Below, in pieces: positions 3,770-29,153 of a stretch of DNA of 52,492 nt (position 1 is its first letter; each line of letters begins with the position of its first letter). The position numbers and the translations under genes were made by a program. Below the pieces are notes generated by a model. It saw nothing but the letters and a program-made list of their open reading frames with translations. It did not search any database and was not told the DNA's origin. Source of the stretch: Indolivaga alginatilytica (GTDB taxonomy: Bacteria; Bacteroidota; Bacteroidia; Bacteroidales; Dysgonomonadaceae); the NCBI RefSeq assembly GCF_003201355.1, contig NZ_QICL01000003.1, positions 1 to 52,492 on the forward strand, written 5' to 3'.

Positions 3770-6565
3770 TTACAAGCGGCGAGGAGATCTTCCACCTCCT
3801 CCCGGAGGACCAAATCTTGGACCAGAATCATTATTGTTCATATCCGTCATCTTTGCACCACCTTTGAATATCTGAAAACGGTAAATGAAACTTACCATGA
3901 AGTAGCTTTCTAAAACATTGGTTATCGTTTCACTATTTGACTGGGTTTGGAGTGATTGAGATATGTTCGTTTTTTGATGTAGAATATCATAGATGCTAAA
4001 TTTGATTGTGCCATTTTTTGCTCTAAATACCTGCTTTGACATAGATGCATTCCACAGCCATTCATTAAGTTCAAATCCTTGGGTCGTTCCTGCATTTGCT
4101 GAATAGTTCAGATCTGTGTCCACTATAAGATTATAGGGTAAATACCATGTTGTATTAAAACTACCTCCATAATTGTAAATTGCTTGATTCAGATTACTAT
4201 TTAGGCTATTATTACTAGTGGTATATCTGATGTTACCTCTAATTCCAAAATCGAAGAGTTCGGATCGGTATTGCAGCCCTAAACTTTCTGCTAGATTAAG
4301 AATGTTAGCAGTGTTTTTTAATGAATCGATATATCCATTACTTCGGGTATAATTTCCGAATGTCATCGAGTTGACAGAGAATTTTTTATTTCTCAGGGGA
4401 CGATTCATTATCAATCTTAAATTTGTACTCCAATTACCGTTTATGTTATCAAAAGTACTCTCTTGTCTGCCTCCTTCGAATGAATAAGTTCTGGAAACAA
4501 TGTCATTCGATGCAAAATCGAATCCCCCGAATACCATAATGGCACTAGCTTTCTCCGGGTTAAATTTTTGATAACGTATTCTGAATCGATTGCTGAATGT
4601 TGGTTTTAAGTTAGGATTACCATAGGTTATCCTTAGCGGGTTGGATTCATCTCTTACACTCGATAGTTGGGTAGTTGTTGGTTGAGTGGTTGTTCCCGAG
4701 TAATCGATACGTAGATTATGTCGTTTATCCCATAGATAATTGAATTGAGCTACGGGAGCATAATTAAGTACATTGTTTGAGATTGTGTCATTCTTATTAG
4801 GTGTGATAATCCAGTTGTCCGTCTTAGAGGGTTGGAGCATTACCCCGACAGTATAATTATATTTAGCTCTAACCGATTTGAAGTTGAGGCTTATCTCCTG
4901 ATTTATAAAGATATTTTTCAAATCTTTTGTTGCAGTAGTATCAATAATTGTATAATTACCCAAACCATCGTTTCGGTATGTGTTTTGATCTGCTACCGAA
5001 TAGTTTTTTCTAAAGCTGTAATTAAACTGAATGAAGTTATTTTTTCCGATAGGTTCTACATACGATAAATAGGCTCTCCAATTATATCCCTGATTATCCT
5101 GATTGGTACGTATATCGATAAGTGAGAGTGAATCTCGACCGGAATTCAATCTCATTGTTTTTTTAGACCAGCTTTCTATATCGTTGTCTAAATCGTTAAA
5201 CCCTCCTGATATGCTGAAGCTAAGAACTCTTCCTTTTTTTCCTAACTTACGGCTTACTTCTAATCTTGCATTTGCCGATCGGCTTTCGCCTTCTGAGAAG
5301 TAGGTCGAATTACCCCAGTTCAAGCTATCATTAACGTTCTCATACGTAGTAAGAAAGTCGCTTATACTCGAAGTCTTGTTTTTGCCATATTGCAAACTGG
5401 GAGAAAAAATTACCTTAGTTAACGAATCCGGAGTCCATTCGAAACGAAGATCTGCGCCTGCATTGTCACTATTATTGATTCCTTTGCTATCTGTATTCTG
5501 AAATTGATTACCCTTAGGGGCATTGGTGATGAATTGCACACGGCTATTTGTTCTTAGATCATTCTCAGTCGTTCCAACACGGGTGTTACCTCCCCATTTT
5601 AGTTTGTCGGAGGGAGTCATCGAAAAGTTAAATCCTCCTGTTGTCGATTCTGTAATACCGTTTCCTCCACCAAAATTCATACCTCCGGTTCGTAGCCCTC
5701 TGAACGAGTTACCGGCATTATCTGTAAAACCTTCATTATTGGTATTATTCGATCCGCCCATCAATGTAAACTGATTATCGTTGCGCATATAGTTGGCTAT
5801 ACCACTAACGCCATATCTATCATCACTACCCAATCCACTGGTTGCACTTCCGTACATACCCTGTTTCATGTTTTTCTTTATAGTTAAATTGATAACTGTT
5901 TCGTCTTCGCCGTCATCAAAGCCTGTCATTTGCGACATGTCCGATTTTCGGTCGAGTACTTGCAGTTTATCCACCATTGCGGCAGGAAGGTTCTTGGATG
6001 CAACTTTAGGGTCGCTGGTGAAGAATTCTTTTCCGTCAACTAATATTTTTTTGATTTCTTTTCCATTGATTGTTATTTTTCCTTCAGAATCGACTTCTGC
6101 TCCCGGCATCTTTTTTAGTAAATCCTCCACCACTGCACTGGGTTGTACTTTATACGAATCGGCATTGTACTCTATTGTATCGCCTTTTATTGCAATTTCA
6201 GCGGCTTTTGCTGTCACAACTGCTTCACTAAGCATAATCCCGTCAGCGCTTAAAAATATGTTATCCATCACAACAGACTTTTTGCTTGCATCCACGTTTA
6301 TAAAGGATTCTTTATATCCCAGATACGATACATTTATAATGTATTTACCCGGACTTACAGTGACGAGAAATTTACCTGCATCGTCCGTTGCTAATCCTTT
6401 AACGTAAGTACTGTCTTTTTCTCGTAATATTCGTATGCCAGCCTGTTCAATTGGATCATTATCCGCTTTATCTAAAACAGTTCCTGTGATTCGTATATTA
6501 TTTTGGGCAGTAAGAGGCAAAAGAGAGCAGATTACCATGGCAAATGCAAGCAGTATTTTTTTCAT
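3770..6565 (-). CDS. Outer-membrane beta-barrel protein with CarboxypepD-regulatory-like and plug domains
   Basis: A 931-aa exported protein. It has a signal peptide (about residues 1-20, ending LTAQ) and then a carboxypeptidase-regulatory-like beta-sandwich (about 22-110: ITGTVLDKADNDPIEQAGI ... GYKESF). A TonB-receptor-like plug follows (about 115-235: EAVVTAKAAEI, KMPGAEVDSEGKITINGKE, ILVDGKEFF). The remainder is an outer-membrane barrel of the 'outer membrane beta-barrel protein' family (OMP_b-brl_3). The C-terminus is unusual: it is Gly/Pro/Arg-rich (PRFGPPGGGGRSPRRL) and does not end in the usual aromatic residue. There is no SusD partner next to it, so it is not an obvious SusC. Substrate unknown. 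It is monocistronic, with a long upstream spacer. Confidence 0.85.
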   Translation of the reverse strand: MKKILLAFAMVICSLLPLTAQNNIRITGTVLDKADNDPIEQAGIRILREKDSTYVKGLATDDAGKFLVTVSPGKYIINVSYLGYKESFINVDASKKSVVMDNIFLSADGIMLSEAVVTAKAAEIAIKGDTIEYNADSYKVQPSAVVEDLLKKMPGAEVDSEGKITINGKEIKKILVDGKEFFTSDPKVASKNLPAAMVDKLQVLDRKSDMSQMTGFDDGEDETVINLTIKKNMKQGMYGSATSGLGSDDRYGVSGIANYMRNDNQFTLMGGSNNTNNEGFTDNAGNSFRGLRTGGMNFGGGNGITESTTGGFNFSMTPSDKLKWGGNTRVGTTENDLRTNSRVQFITNAPKGNQFQNTDSKGINNSDNAGADLRFEWTPDSLTKVIFSPSLQYGKNKTSSISDFLTTYENVNDSLNWGNSTYFSEGESRSANARLEVSRKLGKKGRVLSFSISGGFNDLDNDIESWSKKTMRLNSGRDSLSLIDIRTNQDNQGYNWRAYLSYVEPIGKNNFIQFNYSFRKNYSVADQNTYRNDGLGNYTIIDTTATKDLKNIFINQEISLNFKSVRAKYNYTVGVMLQPSKTDNWIITPNKNDTISNNVLNYAPVAQFNYLWDKRHNLRIDYSGTTTQPTTTQLSSVRDESNPLRITYGNPNLKPTFSNRFRIRYQKFNPEKASAIMVFGGFDFASNDIVSRTYSFEGGRQESTFDNINGNWSTNLRLIMNRPLRNKKFSVNSMTFGNYTRSNGYIDSLKNTANILNLAESLGLQYRSELFDFGIRGNIRYTTSNNSLNSNLNQAIYNYGGSFNTTWYLPYNLIVDTDLNYSANAGTTQGFELNEWLWNASMSKQVFRAKNGTIKFSIYDILHQKTNISQSLQTQSNSETITNVLESYFMVSFIYRFQIFKGGAKMTDMNNNDSGPRFGPPGGGGRSPRRL

Positions 6566-11917: not shown

Positions 11918-11990
11918 GGTGCCATAGCTCAGTTGGTAGAGCAAAGGACTGAAAATCCTTGTGTCCCTAGTTCGATTCTTGGTGGCACCA
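11918..11990 (+). tRNA. tRNA-Phe (anticodon GAA), restored at the left end of the element
   Basis: A 73-nt cloverleaf with acceptor GGTGCCA / TGGCACC, discriminator A, D arm AGCTC..GAGC, anticodon loop CTGAAAA (GAA) and T arm CTAG-TTCGATT-CTTG. From position 11931 onward its 3' 60 nt are part of the 100-bp att repeat, so this copy has been completed by the element or shares its 3' part with it. The second copy at 28951 lacks the first 13 nt. Confidence 0.95.
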
Positions 11991-12030
11991 CTTTAAAAAG
12001 TTTTAGATTAAAGAGTTACATGAAAATGTA
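11931..12030 (+). repeat. attL: 100-bp direct repeat (tRNA-Phe 3' part plus terminator)
   Basis: Identical for 100 bp to 28951-29050. It begins in the D loop of tRNA-Phe and covers the anticodon arm, T arm and most of the downstream terminator. The base before the repeat differs (C against A), and so does the base after it (G against A). Confidence 0.95.
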
Positions 12031-12036
12031 GCTCTT
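12011..12036 (+). terminator. Terminator of tRNA-Phe (left copy)
   Basis: Stem AAGAGTTACAT / ATGTAGCTCTT with a GAAA loop and a run of T. It has one G-T pair. In the right copy the base change G to A turns this into a T-A pair. Confidence 0.8.
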
Positions 12037-12082
12037 TTTTTATTCCCTTAAAGCTATGTTTAGATGGTGATTTACATAGGTT

Positions 12083-12103: not shown

Positions 12104-13303
12104 ATGAGTATAACTATTGATGTGATATGCTACACTTCAAAGGTATTGAAAAACAATGAGTATCCTTTAATGCTAAGATTGACTAAGGATAGGCAGAGGA
12201 AGTATAAAAGTATTGGTGTGTCAACCAAATTTGAAGATTGGGATTTTAATAAAAATCAACCTAAACCTAACACTCCAAATAGAGATTTGATATTAGAACT
12301 TTCAGCCAAACTAATAGGACAGTATAGAAAGTTGGTATTGGAGTTTAAAGCAGAAGATAAAGATTATACCTTATCTACTTTATTAGAGAGAGTTAATAAG
12401 CCTATAAAGAATATTCCAGTAGGAGATTACTTCTTAAAGTATATATCTTCTCTAAAAGTTCAAAAGAGGAGTGGATATGCAGCTTCTATACTACAAGTAT
12501 ATAACTCACTTATCAAATATAATAAGCATCTGAATATATATTTTTCAGATATTGATGTTGCATGGCTTAGAAATTATGAATCATGGTTAAGAGAGGGAGG
12601 CTTAAAAGAAAATACTATAGGTATTAGATTTAGGACTTTGAGAGCTATATATAACTCAGCTCTGGAAGAAGGAATAGTTAAAGCTGAATATTATCCATTT
12701 AAAGCCTATAAAGTATCTAAACTACATCAAAAGACTGCTAAAAGAGCATTGAAAAAAGAGGATATATACAAGATAATATACTATGATACTGCAAATAGAG
12801 AGGGTTATACCCTATTAGCTATAGAGCTATTTACCTATTCTTATGTCATGGGAGGTATTAACTTTGTTGATATGGCTTATCTAACAAAAGATAATATAAT
12901 TGGTAATCAATTAATTTACTCAAGAAGAAAAACTAAGAAGTTAATCAAAATGCCTATCCATCAGGTAGCTATAGAATTGCATCAAAAATATAATGAAAGT
13001 AAATATATCTTTCCTATTTTATCTGATTACCATATAACTGAGCAGCAAAGAATCAATAGAGTTCATAAGGTGATAACTAAGGTTAACAGAGAATTAAAAG
13101 CTATTGGAGAAGAATTGAATATACCAATCAGCTTAACAACTTACGTTGCAAGACACTCATTTGCTACTGTTTTAAAGAGGTCTGGTGTATCTACTTCTAT
13201 CATTAGTGAGTCATTAGGTCATAGTAATGAAAAAGTTACTCAGACCTACTTAGATAGCTTTGAGAATAGTCAAATTAATGAAGCTATGAAGAATTTATTA
13301 TAA
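12104..13303 (+). CDS. Tyrosine recombinase of the 17-kb element
   Basis: A 399-aa integrase. The N-terminal arm-binding domain is about residues 1-95 and the SAM-like core-binding domain about 100-210. The catalytic domain has YVARHSFA (H/R pair, about 345-352), SLGHSNEKV (second His) and Tyr in TQTYLD (about 385). The first catalytic Arg, usually in an RGM/TGLR-type block, is replaced (YVMGGINFVDMAYL), as in the IntDOT-like group. It lies about 110 bp inside attL with its own candidate arm sites, so it is the enzyme that moves this element in and out of tRNA-Phe. Codon use is AT-rich and almost without CG, like the rest of the island. Confidence 0.93.
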   Translation: MSITIDVICYTSKVLKNNEYPLMLRLTKDRQRKYKSIGVSTKFEDWDFNKNQPKPNTPNRDLILELSAKLIGQYRKLVLEFKAEDKDYTLSTLLERVNKPIKNIPVGDYFLKYISSLKVQKRSGYAASILQVYNSLIKYNKHLNIYFSDIDVAWLRNYESWLREGGLKENTIGIRFRTLRAIYNSALEEGIVKAEYYPFKAYKVSKLHQKTAKRALKKEDIYKIIYYDTANREGYTLLAIELFTYSYVMGGINFVDMAYLTKDNIIGNQLIYSRRKTKKLIKMPIHQVAIELHQKYNESKYIFPILSDYHITEQQRINRVHKVITKVNRELKAIGEELNIPISLTTYVARHSFATVLKRSGVSTSIISESLGHSNEKVTQTYLDSFENSQINEAMKNLL

Positions 13304-13383: not shown

Positions 13384-14253
13384 ATGCTAGGAAAATTATT
13401 TGAACAACTTCCAATTAACGAAGTGTATAAAGATTTATTTAAGCCAAGTATGAAAAAAGCTGGAGAAGCTTTGGCTGTAGTAATGGATAGTGCTACTTTA
13501 ATATTACTACCCTTAAGACTATTGAATGAAAGATCTAAAGTTTATTTTCAGAAGAATATAGAAAAATACTCTGAAAAAATAAATGCAGTAGAAGGTTTAA
13601 CTTTAACAGAAGTTCCTCAACATATAGGTCTTCCTATAATAGAAAAATTGACATATCTAAATCAAGAGGATTTATCTAATGCATTTATAAATTTACTAGC
13701 TAAGGCTTCATTTGAAGAAACTTTAATTTTCATACATCCTGCATATCTAGATATCTTAAATAGAATATCTACAGATGAGGCAATAATCCTTTCTGAAATT
13801 AAAGATTGTATTCCATATATAAATATTGCAGTTAGAAAAAATCCCAAAGAAGGAAATGGCTCAGATGCATTAATTAATTCTCTTTTAGAAAAAGCTAAAT
13901 TTATAGAGAATGGTCATGCTAAAGATTCTATTTTAGTTAAACAACTAACAGGAATAGAAGTAGATTTTAATTTAAATTATCCCAATAATATAAATATATA
14001 CCTAGAAAATCTTAAATTAAATGGATTACTAGACTCTAAAGATTCATATGATAAAAATAGGATTCTTACTTATCAAAATTTAGAGGAAAAATATAAAAAT
14101 GTAATAGATGAAGCTCATTCTGTAATTAATGAAGTATTCACTGAAGACCTTGAATATAAAACTGAAATTATAATTCAATATGGATATTTACAACTTACAG
14201 AACTAGGTAAAGGATTCTTAAATATGTGCATAAAAGACATTAATGAGAAGTGA
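13384..14253 (+). CDS. Abi-alpha-like (DUF4393) protein
   Basis: A 289-aa protein resembling the Abi-alpha/DUF4393 family. Family-like features are an N-terminal helical segment with a hydrophobic PLRLLNE-type stretch (about residues 35-55), the central block in which a shared IEKLTYLNQEDLSNAFINLL-type helix pair precedes 'AKAS...HPAYLDILNRIS.DEA', and a C-terminal winged-helix-like part (YGYLQLTELGKGFL). Members are linked to abortive infection and often occur in mobile elements. The mechanism is not established. It is followed 52 bp later by a nuclease gene, so the two may act together. It ends in TGA. Reading that as sense would add only five codons before a TAA. Confidence 0.7.
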   Translation: MLGKLFEQLPINEVYKDLFKPSMKKAGEALAVVMDSATLILLPLRLLNERSKVYFQKNIEKYSEKINAVEGLTLTEVPQHIGLPIIEKLTYLNQEDLSNAFINLLAKASFEETLIFIHPAYLDILNRISTDEAIILSEIKDCIPYINIAVRKNPKEGNGSDALINSLLEKAKFIENGHAKDSILVKQLTGIEVDFNLNYPNNINIYLENLKLNGLLDSKDSYDKNRILTYQNLEEKYKNVIDEAHSVINEVFTEDLEYKTEIIIQYGYLQLTELGKGFLNMCIKDINEK

Positions 14254-14305
14254 GATATAACTTCATAATTATCTACAATAATTGAATCTTCATAAAATAC
14301 AAAAA

Positions 14306-15256
14306 ATGAGTAAATACTATAATCTTCATCTAAAAGATAATCTTCAAATTTATAAAAAACAATTAACTAGCTGTGATTTTAATGATTTTCATGATGAGTT
14401 AAATTTTTTCTATGATAGAATACAGAGTGAACCTATATTAAAAGAAATCATCAACAATATTATTATAAAGTATCCAATAAATAATATGACTCTTAATAAT
14501 TGGTTAAGGGAATTAAGTTACAATAATGTAAAATATAAAGACAGAGAGCACAAGCTATCTTATTTAATTCATACACTGGAGCATTACTATAAATCAGAAT
14601 ATACCCCAACTTGGGATGACTCATTTGGCACACAACCTCTTGAGTGCAATCTGAATTTTTTGAATAGAATAATATATCCTATAATCAACTACGTTGATGA
14701 ATCTCTTGATAATATTAGCTATATACTATATATCTTAGAAAAATATAAGTTAAGAACAGAGTGGTTTACTAAAGATTCTTTAAGGGATAAATATAAGAAT
14801 ACCCTTAACAGACAGTATGAACAAGTCTTAGAAGATGATATTAGATTGTATTTATTTGACCAAGGAATAAATTATCCTTTCTCTACTCCTAAATCAGCTT
14901 CTGGAAGAGCAGATGTTATTAGTTTAGTTGATACAGAAGACCCTCTGGTGATGGAAATTAAAATCTATGATTCAGAGAAAGGATATAAGAAAGATAGAAT
15001 AATTAGTGGCTTTACTCAGATAGTGAAGTATGCTAATGACTATCATAAGAATATAGGTTATTTAGTAGTTTTCAATCTTGATCAAGTTGAGATAGAAATT
15101 GAGAATATAGAACCTGATAATAAACTCCCTAATAGAATTATATTTAATGGTAAGACCTATTATATAATTATTGTCAATCTGAATTATGATGCAACAGCTA
15201 GCAACTTGAAGAAATTAAATAAGGTTACTATATCATATGATGAATTGACTTCATAA
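14306..15256 (+). CDS. PD-(D/E)XK-like nuclease, probable defence protein
   Basis: A 316-aa protein. The start at ATG 14306 is preferred to an upstream in-frame TTG at 14282. The N-terminal 170 residues are helical and unassigned. The C-terminal domain has the restriction-endonuclease-like signature GRAD (D203), then E217-I-K219 in MEIKIYD, 14 residues later, followed by an alpha/beta segment (GFTQIVKYANDYHKNIGYLVVFN). The spacing fits PD-(D/E)XK enzymes of the DUF/Mrr-like sort that cut DNA or RNA. It is adjacent to the Abi-alpha-like gene inside a mobile island, a typical place for anti-phage modules. Substrate unknown. Confidence 0.6.
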   Translation: MSKYYNLHLKDNLQIYKKQLTSCDFNDFHDELNFFYDRIQSEPILKEIINNIIIKYPINNMTLNNWLRELSYNNVKYKDREHKLSYLIHTLEHYYKSEYTPTWDDSFGTQPLECNLNFLNRIIYPIINYVDESLDNISYILYILEKYKLRTEWFTKDSLRDKYKNTLNRQYEQVLEDDIRLYLFDQGINYPFSTPKSASGRADVISLVDTEDPLVMEIKIYDSEKGYKKDRIISGFTQIVKYANDYHKNIGYLVVFNLDQVEIEIENIEPDNKLPNRIIFNGKTYYIIIVNLNYDATASNLKKLNKVTISYDELTS

Positions 15257-15843: not shown

Positions 15844-17640
15844 ATGAAGAATACTATTAAAATTAAAGCTCCAGAGTGAGCTAGTTACTTAGGAGAGTTT
15901 ATGACAGAGCTACCTGTCAATTGCTTGTTTAATAAAGGAGTGACAGGATGTGGGGGAACTGAACTAGCATTGAAAAATGATAAGCATACTATTGTTGCTA
16001 TGCCTTTCATTTCTTTGGTAAATAATAAAGCTGAGAAGGAGGAACATAAAGGAGAAGTGCTAGCTATATATGGAGATACCCCAACTCATGAAATTGAGGA
16101 ATATATAAGAGTTCATAAGGTCTGAAAGATTGCAGTAGTCTATGACTCATTACCCAAAGTAATTAAAATCTTCCAAGATTTAGGAATAAACCCTTATCAA
16201 AAATGTTTCCTCTTAGTAGATGAATACCATGTACTATTTGCTCAATATGTATTTAGGAATAAGTCTGTTAAAAGATTATTAGAATTAGCTCCTAACTTCA
16301 AGGAAGTAACTTATATGACAGCAACCCCCATAGAAGAAGAATTTATGCTAGTGGAGTTAAAAGAACTTCCTATCCTAGAGGTTATTTGGTCTAACAGGAG
16401 AAAAGTTACAGTTGTAAGACAACCTGTATCTTCCCCTCAAAGATATGTTTCTGAACTAATAACTAAAAAATTAGAAGATAAGAGTTTTGGTAATCTTCAT
16501 TTCTTTGTAAATAGTGTGAAGGTTATCAGCAATATATTGAAAAGAACTAATATAAATTCAGTAGATGTCAAGGTTGTTTGTGCTGATAATCCATATAATG
16601 ACAGAAAATTAGGAGCTTATAAGATAAAGAAACCATCAGATAAAGCCTGTAAAATAAATTTTTATACATCTACTTGCTTTGAGGGATGTGACATTTTTGA
16701 TAAAGAAGGTAAAACCTATGTAGTTAGTGAGGGGAGAAATCCCAATACATTATATGATATATCTACCTTGTTTATTCAAATTATAGGGAGGATAAGAGAT
16801 TCTAAATATGGGAATGAGGTATATCATATCCACTCAAGCAGTAGCTATGCAGGAGATGTATCTTATGATGAGTTTAAGGGTATAGCAGATAGAGAATATA
16901 GAGTATCAGCTTCTTGTATCAATGAATATAACTCAGAACCTGTACATCTAAAAAAAATGAGAGTTGAGAAATGGAGTAAAGAGCATTTTGAGAACAGATT
17001 TATTTATGTAAATGAGGAATATACCTTTGAGCTAGATAGAAATCTGCTCAATAAGAGCTTGTTAGACTATAAGCTAAAGTCAGAAGTATACAACAAAAGT
17101 ACCTATTTGATTCAGAGTTATAAAGAGAATGGATTAAATGTAAGAAGCTCTGAATATATCAAATACTCTGATAAATTAAAAGCTAATACTTCAACAAAAG
17201 GCAACTTTAAAGAAGCAATAGAGGAATACTATCTTTTGGCAACCTCCCAAAACTGAGGTAATAATACTGAGAGAATGCAGATAATCAAAGGTAGATATAG
17301 TTTTATCAATGATGCTTATTATCAACTTGGTATTGATGGAATTAGAGAATTAGCTTATAATACAACTCTTATAAAAAGAGAATTAGTAAAGATTTCTGAT
17401 AGACCTTTAGTAAAGAAGATTATTGAGCTATTAATTAAGAAGATAGGTTATCAAAATCCAGTTGATAGAGATGCCAGCAAAAAATATCTCAGAGAAGTAT
17501 ATCAGATATTAGGTATCAATAGAGGTGCAACAGCATCTAAACTTAAAGACTATTTTATCATCAAAGAATCCTCAAAACAAAGAGATGGTAAAACCATTAT
17601 ACAGATTGAATTAATTAAAGAAAAAACAAATTTAAAGTAA
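15844..17640 (+). CDS. SF2-like helicase with three in-frame TGA codons (TGA read as Trp?)
   Basis: One frame runs from ATG 15844 to TAA 17638-17640, 598 codons, interrupted only by TGA at 15877 (codon 12), 16123 (codon 94) and 17254 (codon 471). Read through, it has all helicase-like blocks in order: motif I FNKGVTGCGGTEL (29-41), motif II VDEYH (125-129, DExH-like), motif III MTAT (158-161) and motif VI QIIGRIR (312-318). A C-terminal domain (about 475-595) is shared with the next gene. Motif I lies after the first TGA and motif II after the second, so no single fragment is a working helicase. Two TGG codons also occur. It is probably the element's replication helicase. Decay is the alternative, but there are no other stops or frameshifts. 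Confidence 0.75.
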
Positions 17641-17646
17641 ATAATT

Positions 17647-18132
17647 ATGAATATGAAAGAAGAAAATATAACTGAGAGAAAAGAAAATATGAGTATAATA
17701 AAATCAAAAAATACAGATAAAATTATGAAAAACCAATCAAAATTCAAATGAACACTTATTAAGTATGATGAAGCCGTTCAATCTGGGCAGACATCAATAG
17801 TACAATTTATAGATAAAGAATATCCTCTTATTAGTAGTGTATATATTAATGTGGGGATGGATAGGGTAAGAGAACTTAATTATAACAAGAGGAGAATCAA
17901 TAATGAATTGTTTACTACATACCAAGAAGTAATCAAGGAATTAGTTCTTAGAATTGTACATAAGACTAGAAAATACCCTATTAAATATATAAAGATGATA
18001 CTAAAGGTCATATACTTAAAATTAGATATAGATAAGAAAGCTAAATCAACAGACCTTAATCTTCTATTCCAAACTAGTCCTTGCTATATAAATAAGAATG
18101 GAAAAATAGTAAGAGGTATTATCATATGGTAG
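17647..18132 (+). CDS. Helicase-associated domain protein with one in-frame TGA
   Basis: ATG 17647 to TAG 18130-18132 gives 161 residues if TGA at 17749 (codon 35) is sense. A lysine-rich N-terminus is followed by a domain paralogous to the C-terminus of the preceding helicase. Matching blocks are INVGMDRVRELNYN against YQLGIDGIRELAYN, then a helical stretch, then AKSTDLNLLF against ATASKLKDYF. It begins 6 bp after the helicase stop, so the two are probably co-translated. A start at ATG 17857 after the TGA would remove the first part of the domain. Function unknown; it may be a DNA-binding or helicase-loading subunit. Confidence 0.6.
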
Positions 18133-18227: not shown

Positions 18228-20372
18228 ATGGGAATTATTGAAGAAGTACCTTTGTTTCCTCAAGAAAAAATTAAGGAAGAGAAAGCCTTAAAAGATTGGT
18301 CTGATATAATATTTGAAGTCTCAGTCCCTCTATTTGGAGATATAGATGATGGTAGATCAACTATCAGAGAGGCTACAATCAAGACAGGTAAGTATTATAT
18401 TGATGCTGCTAAAGCAGTTCCAAGAATTGAAGTAAAGAGTACCAATAAAGAAGCTGTTATATATCTTAAATCTAATGAGAAAAGATTATCAGAGATATTG
18501 GATTGTATACCTTATGGTCTTATTAATAAACAACTGACAGGTATAGGTGCTACTTATTTAGAAATGCACTCAAGTAGAAATTCAATCATAGTAACTCCTA
18601 CAAGGACTTTGGCTTATAATAAATCCCTAAAAGAGCCTGATAAGTATTTATATGTAGGTACTAAACTTAATGGTAAGACAACATCAGATAAGGAAATACA
18701 AGATTATTTAGATAGGAATATCAAGCCTAAGAAAATATTGGTAGTAGCTGATAGTCTTTATAAGGTTATCAGAACTATAACTAATACAGGAATAGATATT
18801 TATAGAGAATATTTCTTAATGGTTGATGAGATTGATACCTTACAATCAGATAATCATTTCAGACCTCAGTTATCTAATGTTGTAGATTATTATTTTAAAT
18901 TCAGACAAGATAATAGAGCTTTAGTATCTGCTACTATCAAAGGATTCTCCCACCCTAAACTGATAGAAGAACCCTATATAACAATAACTTGTCAATCACC
19001 TTTAAGAAGAAAAATAAATTTATTACATACCAATAACATCAATCAATTACTATCAGATGAGATAAAAAGAATAACAAAGAAATATCCTAATGGTAAGATA
19101 CTTATTGCTTACAACTCTGTTCAGAATGCTTTAAAAACAATCAACTTATTACTCCCAGAACTTCCAAGGGAAAATTTTGGAATTTTATGTAGTGATGCAA
19201 GCACAGATGAAGTAGGAAATTATAAATCTGTTATTGAGAATGATAGATTAACTCATAAAATAAACTTTATGACTTGTGCTTTCTTTGCTGGGATAGATAT
19301 TGAAGATAAGTGCCATCTAATAGCAGTTTCAAATGTTAGCAAAGGATATTCTTTATTATCAATCAACAAGATGACTCAAATTTATGGAAGATGTAGGAAT
19401 GGAATAATAAGTGATACAATCATATACAACTCTAATAAAAAATCATTCAGATATATCAATAACTATAAAGATAAATTAAAATATAAAGCTCAGAAAGTTA
19501 TTGATCTTTTAGAGTCTGCTGACAAACTGAAAGAGGGAGATAATGACCTAACAGATTTATTCAGCAGAATAGAGAAGGTTATTATTGAGAAAGCTGATGA
19601 AAGATTTTTCTTTGATACTCCCATAAAATTAATCAGAAAGAATATTGATAAGAAAAGGGAAATATCCTATTTCAATATTGATGCTCTATATGAACAAATG
19701 GAGGTTTATTCCTCTCTATACTCAACAAAAGATGCACTAAAAGAACAATTGATTAAAGCTAATCATGAAGTGATATTCAATGAAATATCCTTTGATGTAG
19801 AAGAGCTGCAAACCAATGAATATGATAGTAGAGATATTATTCTGAATAAAGTTCAACTGTGTAAAGATAAGGTGCTTGAGATGAAAAGAAATAATACCTT
19901 AACTGATGATCTGTTAAACTATGAGATCAGACACACCAAAAGAAAAGAAGCTGACTATTATAAGAGAATAAAGGCTCATTACCAATATATTGACATTAAC
20001 TATTTAGCAGATAAACTTTATGATATTTCCTTAGAGAATAAGAAATCATATAGAGGGGTTAAGAATGCACTATCTTTTTGGATATTAGATGATAATCATT
20101 CTTTTAAGATGCAAATATCAGAGGCTTTTAAAGACCATTCTAAAAAGTATTCTTCTCAAGAAATAGCAGAAATACTGAAACCAATAATCAAATATCATTT
20201 CTTTAAAACTTTAAACCAAAGCAGGCTAGTAGGACTATTTAAAATTTTCTTTGATTGGACTTATACACAAGGAAAATACCTTATTAAAGGGACTAATCCT
20301 TTAGCAGTACCAGAGCCAATAAAAAAAATATCTGCTAAAGAGGAAATTTTATATAACTATTTTGAGATATAA
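18228..20372 (+). CDS. Second SF2-like helicase, standard code
   Basis: A 714-aa protein with the same layout as the helicase at 15844. Motif I is in INKQLTGIGATYLE (about 98-111; the usual GKT is replaced, as in its neighbour). Motif II is VDEID (199-203), motif III VSATI (about 236) and motif VI QIYGRCR (384-390). The last 300 residues are helical and end in a domain with YSSQEIAEILKPIIKYHFF, reminiscent of the neighbour's C-terminal domain. All Trp are TGG and no TGA interrupts it. It has its own promoter box. Two diverged paralogues side by side suggest a hetero-complex or two unwinding steps in element replication. Biochemical role inferred. Confidence 0.75.
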   Translation: MGIIEEVPLFPQEKIKEEKALKDWSDIIFEVSVPLFGDIDDGRSTIREATIKTGKYYIDAAKAVPRIEVKSTNKEAVIYLKSNEKRLSEILDCIPYGLINKQLTGIGATYLEMHSSRNSIIVTPTRTLAYNKSLKEPDKYLYVGTKLNGKTTSDKEIQDYLDRNIKPKKILVVADSLYKVIRTITNTGIDIYREYFLMVDEIDTLQSDNHFRPQLSNVVDYYFKFRQDNRALVSATIKGFSHPKLIEEPYITITCQSPLRRKINLLHTNNINQLLSDEIKRITKKYPNGKILIAYNSVQNALKTINLLLPELPRENFGILCSDASTDEVGNYKSVIENDRLTHKINFMTCAFFAGIDIEDKCHLIAVSNVSKGYSLLSINKMTQIYGRCRNGIISDTIIYNSNKKSFRYINNYKDKLKYKAQKVIDLLESADKLKEGDNDLTDLFSRIEKVIIEKADERFFFDTPIKLIRKNIDKKREISYFNIDALYEQMEVYSSLYSTKDALKEQLIKANHEVIFNEISFDVEELQTNEYDSRDIILNKVQLCKDKVLEMKRNNTLTDDLLNYEIRHTKRKEADYYKRIKAHYQYIDINYLADKLYDISLENKKSYRGVKNALSFWILDDNHSFKMQISEAFKDHSKKYSSQEIAEILKPIIKYHFFKTLNQSRLVGLFKIFFDWTYTQGKYLIKGTNPLAVPEPIKKISAKEEILYNYFEI

Positions 20373-20395
20373 TAATAGACTAGATATTTATTCCT

Positions 20396-20403
20396 TACTT
20401 TTG
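20396..20403 (+). promoter_or_regulatory. -7 promoter box for the DUF4145 gene
   Basis: TACTTTTG (TAnnTTTG consensus) lies 18 bp before ATG 20422. It supports that start rather than the in-frame ATG at 20362 inside the helicase gene. Confidence 0.5.
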
Positions 20404-20421
20404 TCACTAAAGTATCAAGAT

Positions 20422-21087
20422 ATGAAGTCTATAGAACCTAAAAAGAATCTATTAGTTTTTACATGCCCTCATTGTAAAACAGTATCCACACATGAATGGG
20501 GAGAGTATAAATACCAAGAAGATGTAAATTTATCTCTTGGCGGTTTGGATTTTTTCAGCAAACAAGAACATAAGAAAGTAGAAATCTCAAATCTATTTTT
20601 TTCAAGGTGTGCTACATGTTATCAAAAAACAGTTTGGATTAATGATAAGATGGTTTATCCCAATATAGCAGCACCAGAACCAAACTCTGAAATGCCTCAG
20701 TCTGTATTAGAACTTTATAAAGAAGCAGAAAGCATATATATTAATTCTCCAAGAGGAGCTGCTGCCTTACTAAGATTATCAATTCAAATCTTATGTAAAG
20801 ATTTAGGTGAATCAGGTAAGAACATTAATAATGACATAGCTAATCTTGTTAAGAAAGGTCTTCCTGAGATTGTACAACAATCATTAGATATAGTTAGAGT
20901 AACAGGAAATGATGCTGTTCATCCTGGATTAATTGATACTGATAACCAAGAAACTGTTACTAAACTCTTTGAGTTAATCAATATTATAATTGAATATATG
21001 ATAGCTTTACCTAAAAAAGTTAGTGGCTTATATTCCTCATTACCATCAGATAAAGTTCAAGCAATCAATGATAGAGATGGTAAATGA
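20422..21087 (+). CDS. DUF4145 domain protein with N-terminal zinc ribbon
   Basis: 221 aa from the chosen ATG. The N-terminus has CPHCK and, about 35 residues on, CATC, a likely zinc ribbon. The C-terminal half matches DUF4145: SPRGAAALLRLSIQILCKDLG, GLPEIVQQSLDIVRVTGNDAVHPG. DUF4145 proteins are common in defence islands and are often joined to nuclease or helicase components. Activity is unknown. It ends in TGA followed by 11 sense codons and TAA, so read-through would add a short tail. A strong terminator follows at 21114-21146. Confidence 0.8.
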   Translation: MKSIEPKKNLLVFTCPHCKTVSTHEWGEYKYQEDVNLSLGGLDFFSKQEHKKVEISNLFFSRCATCYQKTVWINDKMVYPNIAAPEPNSEMPQSVLELYKEAESIYINSPRGAAALLRLSIQILCKDLGESGKNINNDIANLVKKGLPEIVQQSLDIVRVTGNDAVHPGLIDTDNQETVTKLFELINIIIEYMIALPKKVSGLYSSLPSDKVQAINDRDGK

Positions 21088-21306: not shown

Positions 21307-21786
21307 ATGGATTATACAGTAGAAGATATAGACATACAAAAAGATATTGAAAGATTAGGATTAACTCAACCTAGTGGACTTTCATTTCTTCCAGAAAATT
21401 TAAAAACAGCAAGTACTGATAAAGATTTCATTTTTACAGATAATTTTGTAGAACTCAACAAAATATTTAAAGAGAATGAAATAGATTTTGATATACTAGG
21501 AGGTGATAATAATCTTTATAGGACAAGAAAAAGTAATCAGATTTATCTACCAGCTATACTTTTTAGTCTTGCTACAGTCTTAGAGAATTCTGCATTAATA
21601 ACTATTTCATTGAATCTTATTTCTAACTATATATTTGATTTATGTAAAGGTAGTTTACATAAGAAAACTGTAAATGTTGATTTTTACATTGAAACAAAAG
21701 AAAAAGGAAAAACAAAGAAGATAAGTTATAAAGGAGATTCTGAAGGATTTGCTAAGTTGGAGAAAATAATAAAGGCAATGAAATGA
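21307..21786 (+). CDS. Unknown 159-aa protein, first gene of an overlapping pair
   Basis: I do not recognise a family. The N-terminal 75 residues are acidic and soluble-looking. Residues about 76-108 are strongly hydrophobic (IYLPAILFSLATVLENSALITISL) and could be a membrane helix or buried helices. The C-terminus is a small beta/Lys-rich segment (VDFYIETKEKGKTKKISYKG) ending KLEKIIKAMK. The stop codon overlaps the next start (ATGA at 21783-21786), so the two genes are translationally coupled. The pair stands alone after a terminator and a 160-bp spacer in a region rich in defence-type genes, so a two-gene anti-phage or toxin-antitoxin unit is possible but unproven. Confidence 0.6.
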   Translation: MDYTVEDIDIQKDIERLGLTQPSGLSFLPENLKTASTDKDFIFTDNFVELNKIFKENEIDFDILGGDNNLYRTRKSNQIYLPAILFSLATVLENSALITISLNLISNYIFDLCKGSLHKKTVNVDFYIETKEKGKTKKISYKGDSEGFAKLEKIIKAMK

Positions 21787-22448
21787 AAAACTTTAAGATT
21801 AATCCCAATGTGATATTAGAAGAGTTTAATAAAGTAGCTAAACTTGCTCAAAGAAAGGCTTTTATTACAGTTGATACTGAACTGCAAAAAGAAGAAATAG
21901 AAACTATACAAAAATATAGAATCCAACTAGTAGAAAAAAAAGAAATATATAAAGTAGAAAAATTAGAAAATGAAGCTAATCTTATTTACTGTCTTGAGAA
22001 TTCTTTATTAGCTTTAGAACATGAGTTAATGATGCTAGTTAATATTAAAGAGGGTAGGATGAATGAAGCTTGGGATAATCTGGTTGATGCACAAGTAACA
22101 TATGGAACAGTTCTAAAAAATAGTTTCTTTTCTATTGAATCAGAGGAAGGATATCTTAAGAGACTAGAAGCTTATGAAAGATTACTTTTCCCTCCAATGA
22201 TATTCACTAGTGTTGGTGGAATTATAAGAGAGAGTCTTTGCTCTTTATGTAATGATGACTATAACAAATGTAATCATATTAAAGGTAAAATCTATAATGG
22301 AGAATGTTGCACAAGAATAATTTCAAGAATGGAAATAGAAGAAGTTTCTTTTGTTGATGTACCTGCAAATAAACATTGTAGAGCAATAACTACAAAATCT
22401 AATGGTAAGACTATAGATGTTTTAACCTTGAAAGAAGTTGATAATTGA
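21783..22448 (+). CDS. Unknown 221-aa protein with Cys/His knuckle, second gene of the pair
   Basis: The N-terminal two thirds are helical. The C-terminal part has C-S-L-C-N-x4-K-C-N-H-I-K-G-K-I-Y-N-G-E-C-C, a likely zinc-binding knuckle, followed by EEVSFVDVPANKHCRA. This block resembles a widespread but uncharacterised C-x2-C...C-x-H-I-x-G-x-x-Y...E-x-S-x-V-x-x-P-A arrangement, loosely similar to the end of prohead-protease-like domains. I can give no activity. It overlaps the previous gene by 4 bp. It ends in TGA, and reading that codon as sense would add about 21 residues before TAA. Confidence 0.6.
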   Translation: MKNFKINPNVILEEFNKVAKLAQRKAFITVDTELQKEEIETIQKYRIQLVEKKEIYKVEKLENEANLIYCLENSLLALEHELMMLVNIKEGRMNEAWDNLVDAQVTYGTVLKNSFFSIESEEGYLKRLEAYERLLFPPMIFTSVGGIIRESLCSLCNDDYNKCNHIKGKIYNGECCTRIISRMEIEEVSFVDVPANKHCRAITTKSNGKTIDVLTLKEVDN

Positions 22449-22973: not shown

Positions 22974-23849
22974 ATGAACTTAAGACAGTCACAAAGGATG
23001 CAAGCTAAAATTAAGCTTGCTATAGAAGGATGCTCTGGTAGTGGTAAGACCTATTCAAGTCTACTACTAGCCAGTGGTATAACAAGTTGGAATAAAATAG
23101 CAATCATTGATTCTGAGAATGGTAGTGCTGATTTATATGCACACTTGGGTAACTATAATGTATTGACATTACAAACTCCATTCACTCCTGAGAAGTATAT
23201 ACAAGCTATTGAAGTATGTGAAAAAGCAGGAATGGAAGTCATTATTATTGATAGTATTTCTCATTGTTGGGAGTATCTATTAGAGTATCATTCAGGGCTT
23301 CAAGGGAACAGCTTTACCAATTGGGGAAAGATAACACCAAGACAGAACTCTTTTATTCAAAAGGTCTTGAGCAGTAATAGTCATATCATTTGTACCATGA
23401 GAACCAAACAGGATTATGTCCTGACTGAAAAGAATGGTAAGATGATACCAGAGAAAGTTGGTCTTAAAGCAGTCATGAGAGATGGAGTAGATTATGAATT
23501 TACCATAGTCTTTGATATTGATATAAAACACAATGCTGTTGCCAATAAGGATAGGACAGGTATGTTTGTTGGTAAACCAGAGTTTTTAATATCATCTGAT
23601 ATTGGAAAAAGAATACTCCAATGGTGTAACAGTGGTGCTGATATAAATACTGTTATATTGGCTTTGAAAAATGCTCAAACAGAAGAAGAACTCTATTCTA
23701 TCTATCATCAATATCCAGAATGGAGAGAACAATTAACTCCTGCTCTAATGAACAGAAAACTAACCCTTCAATCCCAAGAAAAACAATCAATTATTTCAAA
23801 CCCTTCAAACATATTGAATTATGGAAACAATGCAGCTATTACCAGTTAA
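22974..23849 (+). CDS. Sak4-like/RecA-fold phage ATPase
   Basis: A 291-aa protein of the phage AAA (Sak4-type) group. Walker A is GCSGSGKT (19-26), followed by IIDSENGSADLY and Walker B VIIIDSIS (about 91-98), then CTMRTKQDYV (sensor-like) and RDGVDYEFTIVFD, which is the usual order in this family. These proteins assist single-strand annealing or recombination in temperate phages and mobile elements. Its last 29 bp overlap the start of the DUF3871 gene, so the two are coupled. Together they look like the element's recombination/replication module. Confidence 0.85.
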   Translation: MNLRQSQRMQAKIKLAIEGCSGSGKTYSSLLLASGITSWNKIAIIDSENGSADLYAHLGNYNVLTLQTPFTPEKYIQAIEVCEKAGMEVIIIDSISHCWEYLLEYHSGLQGNSFTNWGKITPRQNSFIQKVLSSNSHIICTMRTKQDYVLTEKNGKMIPEKVGLKAVMRDGVDYEFTIVFDIDIKHNAVANKDRTGMFVGKPEFLISSDIGKRILQWCNSGADINTVILALKNAQTEEELYSIYHQYPEWREQLTPALMNRKLTLQSQEKQSIISNPSNILNYGNNAAITS

Positions 23850-28950: not shown

Positions 28951-29050
28951 AGTTGGTAGAGCAAAGGACTGAAAATCCTTGTGTCCCTAGTTCGATTCTT
29001 GGTGGCACCACTTTAAAAAGTTTTAGATTAAAGAGTTACATGAAAATGTA
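28951..29050 (+). repeat. attR: 100-bp direct repeat with truncated tRNA-Phe
   Basis: Exact copy of 11931-12030. It contains the 3' 60 nt of tRNA-Phe without the first 13 nt, so it is not a functional tRNA gene, plus the tRNA's terminator. Confidence 0.95.
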
Positions 29051-29056
29051 ACTCTT
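29031..29056 (+). terminator. Terminator of the original tRNA-Phe (right copy)
   Basis: Stem AAGAGTTACAT / ATGTAACTCTT, fully paired, followed by a T run. It differs from the left copy by one base that converts the G-T pair to A-T. Confidence 0.75.
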
Positions 29057-29153
29057 TTTTTTATCTAAAAAAAAACAGATGTTGTTGGTGGGGAGATAAT
29101 CTGTATAAACTATAAGTGTTACAATAAATGATGTAATTTGTTGCAAGTATCAC

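Follow-up and report, generated by a model that had tools for sequence, protein, structure and literature searches.

A putative replication helicase, probably written in a phage-type genetic code within ordinary-code islands of Bacteroidales

Can a mobile element keep a gene in a code for which its host apparently lacks a decoder? Two adjacent genes of Indolivaga alginatilytica raise this question. They lie in a stretch of 52,492 nucleotides (the window; contig NZ_QICL01000003.1, positions 1 to 52,492), and when translated with table 11 each is broken by in-frame stops. The initial annotation described both frames as interrupted by TGA alone, with no TAA, TAG, or frameshift inside, and this is borne out, as all four inner stops are TGA. 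It also described two adjacent replication-type genes. The adjacency stands, and we refine the second gene to a stand-alone copy of the helicase C-terminal domain. The features of the locus are as follows.

15844-17640, plus strand: SF2 helicase gene, ending in TAA (table 11 and table 4 translation, family alignment, tree, fold of an intact homologue)
15877-15879, plus strand: in-frame TGA, helicase codon 12 (copies L110 and L098 have TGA at the same column)
16123-16125, plus strand: in-frame TGA, helicase codon 94 (at the same column L195 has TGA and L196 has TGG)
17254-17256, plus strand: in-frame TGA, helicase codon 471 (other copies mostly have F, L, V, or I)
17647-18132, plus strand: stand-alone helicase C-terminal domain (gene 2), with an in-frame TGA at 17749, ending in TAG (sequence match)

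Gene 2 was matched to copy L196 (best E value 2.7e-13), and its stretch before codon 35 has no match to anything. Among the changes that turn a helicase codon into a stop in one step, 76 of 322 (24%) give TGA, so random nonsense mutation would produce four TGAs out of four with a probability of ~0.003 (the fourth is from gene 2, whose codons are outside this count).

The same restriction to one kind of stop is seen in related copies. We searched with a profile (A1) built from four intact homologues together with the piece of the window copy that lacks stops. The search covered four sets of genomes: 101 from the window's family, samples of 393 from its order and 395 from its class, and 268 from the family of G455 (Alistipes and kin), which we take to be the Rikenellaceae. 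In that last family all 16 close copies, from 14 genomes, are interrupted by TGA only, with 55 TGAs in the matched stretches. Three of these copies are divided between two frames. Farther matches listed in the family of G455 are stop-free except for one TAG (G455:C3). Two genomes, G455 and G500, have two TGA-type helicase loci each.

In the window's own family the nearest copies are the window (three TGAs), G079 (three TAGs), and five that are stop-free, one of which is a fragment at a contig end that was scored with one TAA in another search. An extra tiny helicase match with one TAA was also seen in G079. Table-11 homologues without stops are present in similar islands as well, and named records contribute copies from Alistipes, Paludibacter, Tannerella, Seramator, and Dysgonomonas, several of which are loci already in the genome set. 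No close relative of the window copy was found among 150 relatives or the 101 family, 393 order, and 395 class genomes, nor in a scan of IMG/VR with the window piece. As a control, the island-type integrase gave 76 matches (E values up to 1e-60) in 50 of the 268 genomes, with at most six candidates scored per genome. Of these, 74 are stop-free; one exception has a single TGA and the other has TGA, TAG, and TAA.

What does TGA encode in these genes? In an alignment of 30 sequences (island loci counted once each; one other row, L239, duplicates L033), column 226 is TGA in 14 copies and W or Y in all others, and column 692 is TGA in 13 copies and W, Y, F, or V in the others. The window copy itself has TGG and Tyr at these two columns. 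Profile scores summed over 54 TGA codons outside the window, 52 from islands and two from phage contig L241, are highest for W (+104.7), followed by Y (+52.4), with negative values for the rest; the related copies contributing to these sums are not independent. When the 15 TGA-type loci were scored singly, W was best in 12 and Y in three. The 16 TGA-type helicases together contain 55 TGA and 18 TGG codons and terminate with TAA (eight) or TAG (eight), never with TGA. TGA is the terminator of four of 12 table-11 helicase copies.

The proposal that TGA stands for Trp is therefore strongly supported for the family, but the window's own sites do not echo it in comparison with table-11 homologues. 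Trp had been expected in homologues at codons 12, 94, and 471. Table-11 copies instead have a mixture of S, K, N, E, G, and D at the first, mostly K or R at the second, and mostly F at the third. Scored alone, the three window helicase sites favor no residue clearly, with K first at -0.2 and L next at -0.7. A further expectation, that related islands would share TGA positions, holds for codons 12 and 94 but not for codon 471, and the coincidence of two of three window helicase columns with TGA elsewhere has a probability of ~0.0016 by a simple binomial calculated post hoc. Overall, it is very likely that the clade sister to the window copy keeps this gene in a code with TGA as Trp within otherwise standard-code islands; for the window copy itself the likelihood is a little lower.

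The two window genes are part of an island of 17.0 kb at a tRNA-Phe site, flanked by 111-bp repeats that are 99% identical and containing a tyrosine integrase. Besides the recoded genes, the island features are as follows.

11918-11991, plus strand: tRNA-Phe (GAA), the integration site (ARAGORN, Rfam)
11931-12041, no strand: left 111-bp att-like repeat (99% identical to 28951-29061)
12104-13303, plus strand: tyrosine integrase in ordinary code, three TGG and no TGA (Pfam PF00589, PF13102, PF17293; codon count)
13384-14253, plus strand: Abi_alpha-type abortive-infection gene, cargo, ends in TGA (Pfam PF14337, 5.9e-30; PADLOC PDC-S47, 2.2e-62)
14282-15256, plus strand: cargo gene, function unassigned (no Pfam match; weak PADLOC PDC-M14B match, 0.0015)
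18228-20372, plus strand: distant helicase paralogue in ordinary code, three TGG and no TGA (DEAD, 1.7e-6)
20362-21087, plus strand: DUF4145 DNA-binding protein, ends in TGA (Pfam, 4.5e-14; phrog_1305, 4e-35)
22974-23849, plus strand: Sak4-like annealing ATPase (Pfam AAA_24; phrog_1366, 6.4e-76, and phrog_124, 7.1e-9)
28951-29061, no strand: right 111-bp att-like repeat, with a tRNA remnant below threshold (repeat comparison)

Five predicted genes of the window island end in TGA, among them the Abi_alpha-type and DUF4145 genes. In five of 11 sister loci, two tRNAs of the same kind lie 9-10.3 kb apart around the locus. Defense-type cargo occurs repeatedly in such islands, as the Abi_alpha-type gene in the window, an SpbK-like TIR gene in L092, and a bSEFIR gene in the table-11 island of D. 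mossii; LRR proteins are further cargo in L090 and L100. No terminase or portal was found among the window proteins scanned (10 entries with Pfam, 10 with phrog profiles). The protein encoded at 21783-22448 has weak matches to prohead proteases and head proteins and a 32.5% match to Halorubrum virus Humcor2. Comparison of this protein with the prophage of G046, a genome described below, revealed no link.

As far as checked, the integrases and other island genes are in the ordinary code, and it is the helicase, in the window together with gene 2, that is recoded. The integrases of 14 TGA-type islands contain 40 TGG codons and no in-frame TGA, and six of them end in TGA; set against the 55 TGA and 18 TGG codons of the helicases, the difference is pronounced (Fisher, 8e-17). 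A second protein family shared among islands (cl3) has 33 TGG codons and no stop in eight hits. A third (cl1) is stop-free in nine of 10 hits, and the tenth, in L197, spans a TGA and a TAA. Further table-4 frames containing TGA are listed in the islands. In L198 a decayed integrase (4825-6093) with TAG and TAA, ending in TGA, lies beside an intact-looking TGA-type helicase.

The copy in G079 shows a parallel case with a different codon. In this TAG island (L029:10569-13150, from G079:C46) the helicase has three TAGs and is followed by a radical-SAM/DUF5131-like gene with two TAGs; both frames stay open only when TAG is decoded, and ordinary genes flank the pair. One helicase TAG stands where its four nearest table-11 relatives have Gln, and Gln is the best-scoring residue for the helicase TAGs, weakly (+3.5, followed by S at +2.6 and K at +2.4). 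The two TAGs of the second gene face one Gln and one Arg in D. mossii.

Both reassignments are used by phages, and phages also carry this helicase family. Five of the eight IMG/VR phage records with the family that we tested recode. Open reading frame coverage increases under table 4 in four of the eight records (in L107, for example, from 0.47 to 0.77) and under table 15 in L281 (from 0.45 to 0.84). Coverage of L106 rises somewhat under both codes, from 0.43 to 0.53 and 0.59, and L108 and L236 show no gain under either table. The long table-4 frames of L107 contain TGA and, as listed, lack TGG. In L241, portal and terminase pieces lie between TGAs. The published survey of crAss-like phages, in the part drawn on here, describes 243 phages that reassign TAG to Gln or TGA to Trp (PMC7886860).

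The initial annotation had supposed that recoding phages bring a tRNA with anticodon UCA, and this is true of some of them. UCA tRNAs were found in two of nine phage records searched (G1135 and G1136), which perhaps represent one kind of phage because the tRNA sequence is identical. No suppressor tRNA was identified in the L241 phage stretches. A tRNA-like sequence in L241 was considered, and we do not claim it as a suppressor since its anticodon is unclear. Closer to the window, the genome G046, from the same family, contains a TGA-recoding prophage, L288 and L033 (G046:C6:145000-184999), with head, portal, terminase, and tail pieces. Its helicase homologue has no TGA (record L239 has an identical sequence). 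A divergent tRNA-like sequence (L033:8673-8745) with anticodon UCA and a perfect anticodon stem lies ~530 bases upstream of this helicase; it was missed by ARAGORN and scored 27.5 bits against an Rfam cut-off of 29.

The role of the helicase was approached via a predicted structure for the intact D. mossii homologue (pLDDT 81, pTM 0.65); sequence searches provided no useful solved relative. In the PDB the model resembles SF2 helicases, and the viral models similar to it include phage helicases and replication origin-binding proteins. Matches to UL9-like viral origin-binding SF2 helicases include proteins of Marseillevirus (Foldseek, 2e-13) and HSV-1 (2.6e-8). However, identity to these is 11-13%, the TM-scores are 0.36-0.42 over the query, and other SF2 helicases match too. 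From this predicted fold we suggest that the helicase is probably a replication initiator.

We propose that the window element is a satellite-like island whose helicase would be translated only once a recoding phage supplies a suppressor, a reading that the sequence comparisons make reasonably probable. Without the suppressor, ribosomes would stop at codon 12 and no helicase would be made. Infection by a TGA-recoding phage, or induction of one, would bring in a suppressor tRNA with which both genes could be translated. Island replication, or interference with the phage that is linked to replication, would then be switched on. We infer three things here: that translation is gated, what the helper is, and that the gated step is replication. 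More broadly, islands of Bacteroidales may keep their replication helicase under a genetic-code lock, unreadable by the host, with the suppressor tRNA of recoding phages as the induction signal. This arrangement would have had at least three origins on the tree (TGA twice, TAG once), matching the two codes of the phages; we place this generalization slightly above even chances. If so, the element would detect a virus through the code it uses, a signal that the phage could abandon only at the cost of its own recoded genes. Recoding phages would face a parasite or enemy dependent on the recoding, with implications for why phages change codes over short distances. Standard annotation would also be breaking up a genuine gene in various public genomes. 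Searches of open-licence PMC papers, judged by titles and the openings of abstracts, listed neither recoded genes within standard-code islands nor satellites gated by the code, which is a weak negative.

An unlikely alternative form of the lock is that the helicase is itself an anti-phage effector, untranslatable until the suppressor of a recoding phage arrives, with the stops acting as the sensor. Stops of a single kind, the lack of a suppressor found at home, and the defense-type cargo of the window, L092, and D. mossii islands would all be expected of such a system. That cargo, however, is in the ordinary code, and the gene that is recoded looks like a helicase for replication, with relatives carried by the recoding phages.

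A helicase that depends on a phage for translation also has to be weighed against a decoder resident in the cell. In the searches run, no UCA tRNA was found in islands or in hosts outside the G046 prophage. The window genome (G000) has 44 Rfam tRNA matches, with 150 of 308 candidates scored. ARAGORN, run on the Rfam stretches of G000 and on the window, named 44 genes, none with a UCA anticodon; it saw one tRNA-Ser absent from the Rfam list and did not confirm one fragment of 30.5 bits. In G640, which consists of one contig, all candidates were scored, and none of the 48 tRNA matches has UCA. Two Trp tRNAs and one phage UCA tRNA formed the basis of a further model (R1), which was applied to seven genomes; in G000 it scored 150 of 224 candidates, and in G046 150 of 162. 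Its top match was tRNA-Trp(CCA) in all seven, and ARAGORN called no UCA in 22 of the 30 R1 loci, those on which it was run. Scanning for UCA anticodon arms yielded three across the 16 islands, where 2.0 were expected, and zero in the window island; none of the three has a T arm and acceptor, a filter stricter than known phage tRNAs would pass. Release factor 2 (prfB) is encoded in all six genomes searched. The host thus seems unable to read the code of the helicase, which is why the gene probably works only with a recoding virus that supplies the decoder.

It is improbable, in our judgment, that a divergent UGA-reading tRNA or a readthrough factor escaped these searches and allows expression in ordinary cells. 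The integrases of the same islands terminate at TGA, and UCA arms are no more frequent in the islands than chance predicts, even though the same scan picks up such arms in L278, L290, and the G046 prophage. In favor of an overlooked decoder are the tRNA-like sequence of that prophage, which eluded ARAGORN and fell below the Rfam cut-off, the scoring of 150 of 308 (Rfam) and 150 of 224 (R1) candidates in the window genome, and the existence of recoding crAss-like phages with no detectable suppressor, as noted in the consulted part of PMC7886860.

Selection and phylogeny bear on whether the genes function at all. In ten pairs of TGA-type copies dN/dS is 0.05-0.15, and the same holds past the first TGA; some of these values are upper bounds only because dS is saturated. 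Two table-11 pairs have values of 0.09 and 0.11. Calculation of dN/dS across the TGA sites, a check proposed at the outset, therefore indicates purifying selection in the sister clade. In the tree the window copy is sister to a 14-locus TGA clade with support of 94/89, just below the star of the tool, on a branch of 1.31, a length that lowers confidence in the placement. Two interrupted copies fall among table-11 copies: that of G079, with three TAGs, and that of Paludibacter, whose single TGA is perhaps a plain nonsense mutation. The initial annotation also suggested that the genes might have come recently from a recoding replicon. Given the position of the window copy beside a TGA clade under purifying selection, recent arrival appears less likely than long upkeep.

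These results make it quite improbable that the genes are dead cargo, captured from recoding phages and decaying, with the restriction to TGA simply inherited. The existence of relatives in recoding phages, the long branch of the window copy, and the splitting of three of the 16 close copies are compatible with such a fate. Nevertheless, the low dN/dS across species largely refutes it for the clade, the window helicase retains 49 of 52 near-invariant family columns, and the TGA-type island copies group together, the Paludibacter copy excepted. True decay also yields mixed stops, as in the L198 integrase and G714:C83. A pseudogene was likewise considered for the window locus and rejected, as the window has only TGA and no frameshift and the clade shows the same low dN/dS, but split frames do occur in those three copies. 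Barely credible is low-level natural readthrough by the tRNA-Trp(CCA) that the hosts possess, serving to restrict the dose: UGA is the leakiest stop, but most copies hold two to five TGAs and the losses multiply, so almost no product would result, and the TAG lineage (G079) would be left unexplained.

A helicase gated by phage decoding would set these islands apart from known systems. They share with crAss-like phages the same two reassignments, an association with Bacteroidetes, and the involvement of suppressor tRNAs, so far as the portion of PMC7886860 used here describes them. In those phages, however, mostly late genes are recoded and the phage often brings its own tRNA, whereas the window type is a small island in a standard-code genome in which the helicase is recoded (joined by the following gene in the window and in G079) and no suppressor was found. 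The window island resembles a small phage satellite because it has an integrase, site-specific repeats, and defense cargo; the helicase and the Sak4-like gene are its candidate replication genes. Like PICMI, PICI, and PLE (PMC10803314, in part), islands of this type are site-specific integrase elements of ~9-17 kb with a replication-type gene and defense cargo, and their scanned proteins include neither terminase nor portal. They differ in that the proposed switch lies in the genetic code rather than in a phage protein or an AlpA-type regulator, and in that the replication gene is an SF2 helicase. The gene set differs from that of PICMI as well, given in the same portion of PMC10803314 as an integrase, AlpA, a DUF3987/DUF5906 primase, and a Fis regulator; of these, the integrase alone is present among the 10 window entries scanned with Pfam.

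No direct repeats occur upstream of the window helicase. Direct repeats with a period of 63-64 bp were observed upstream of the recoded helicase in two of seven upstream regions examined (L194:8507-8676 and L197:10657-10784), and these are possible origin or control sites.
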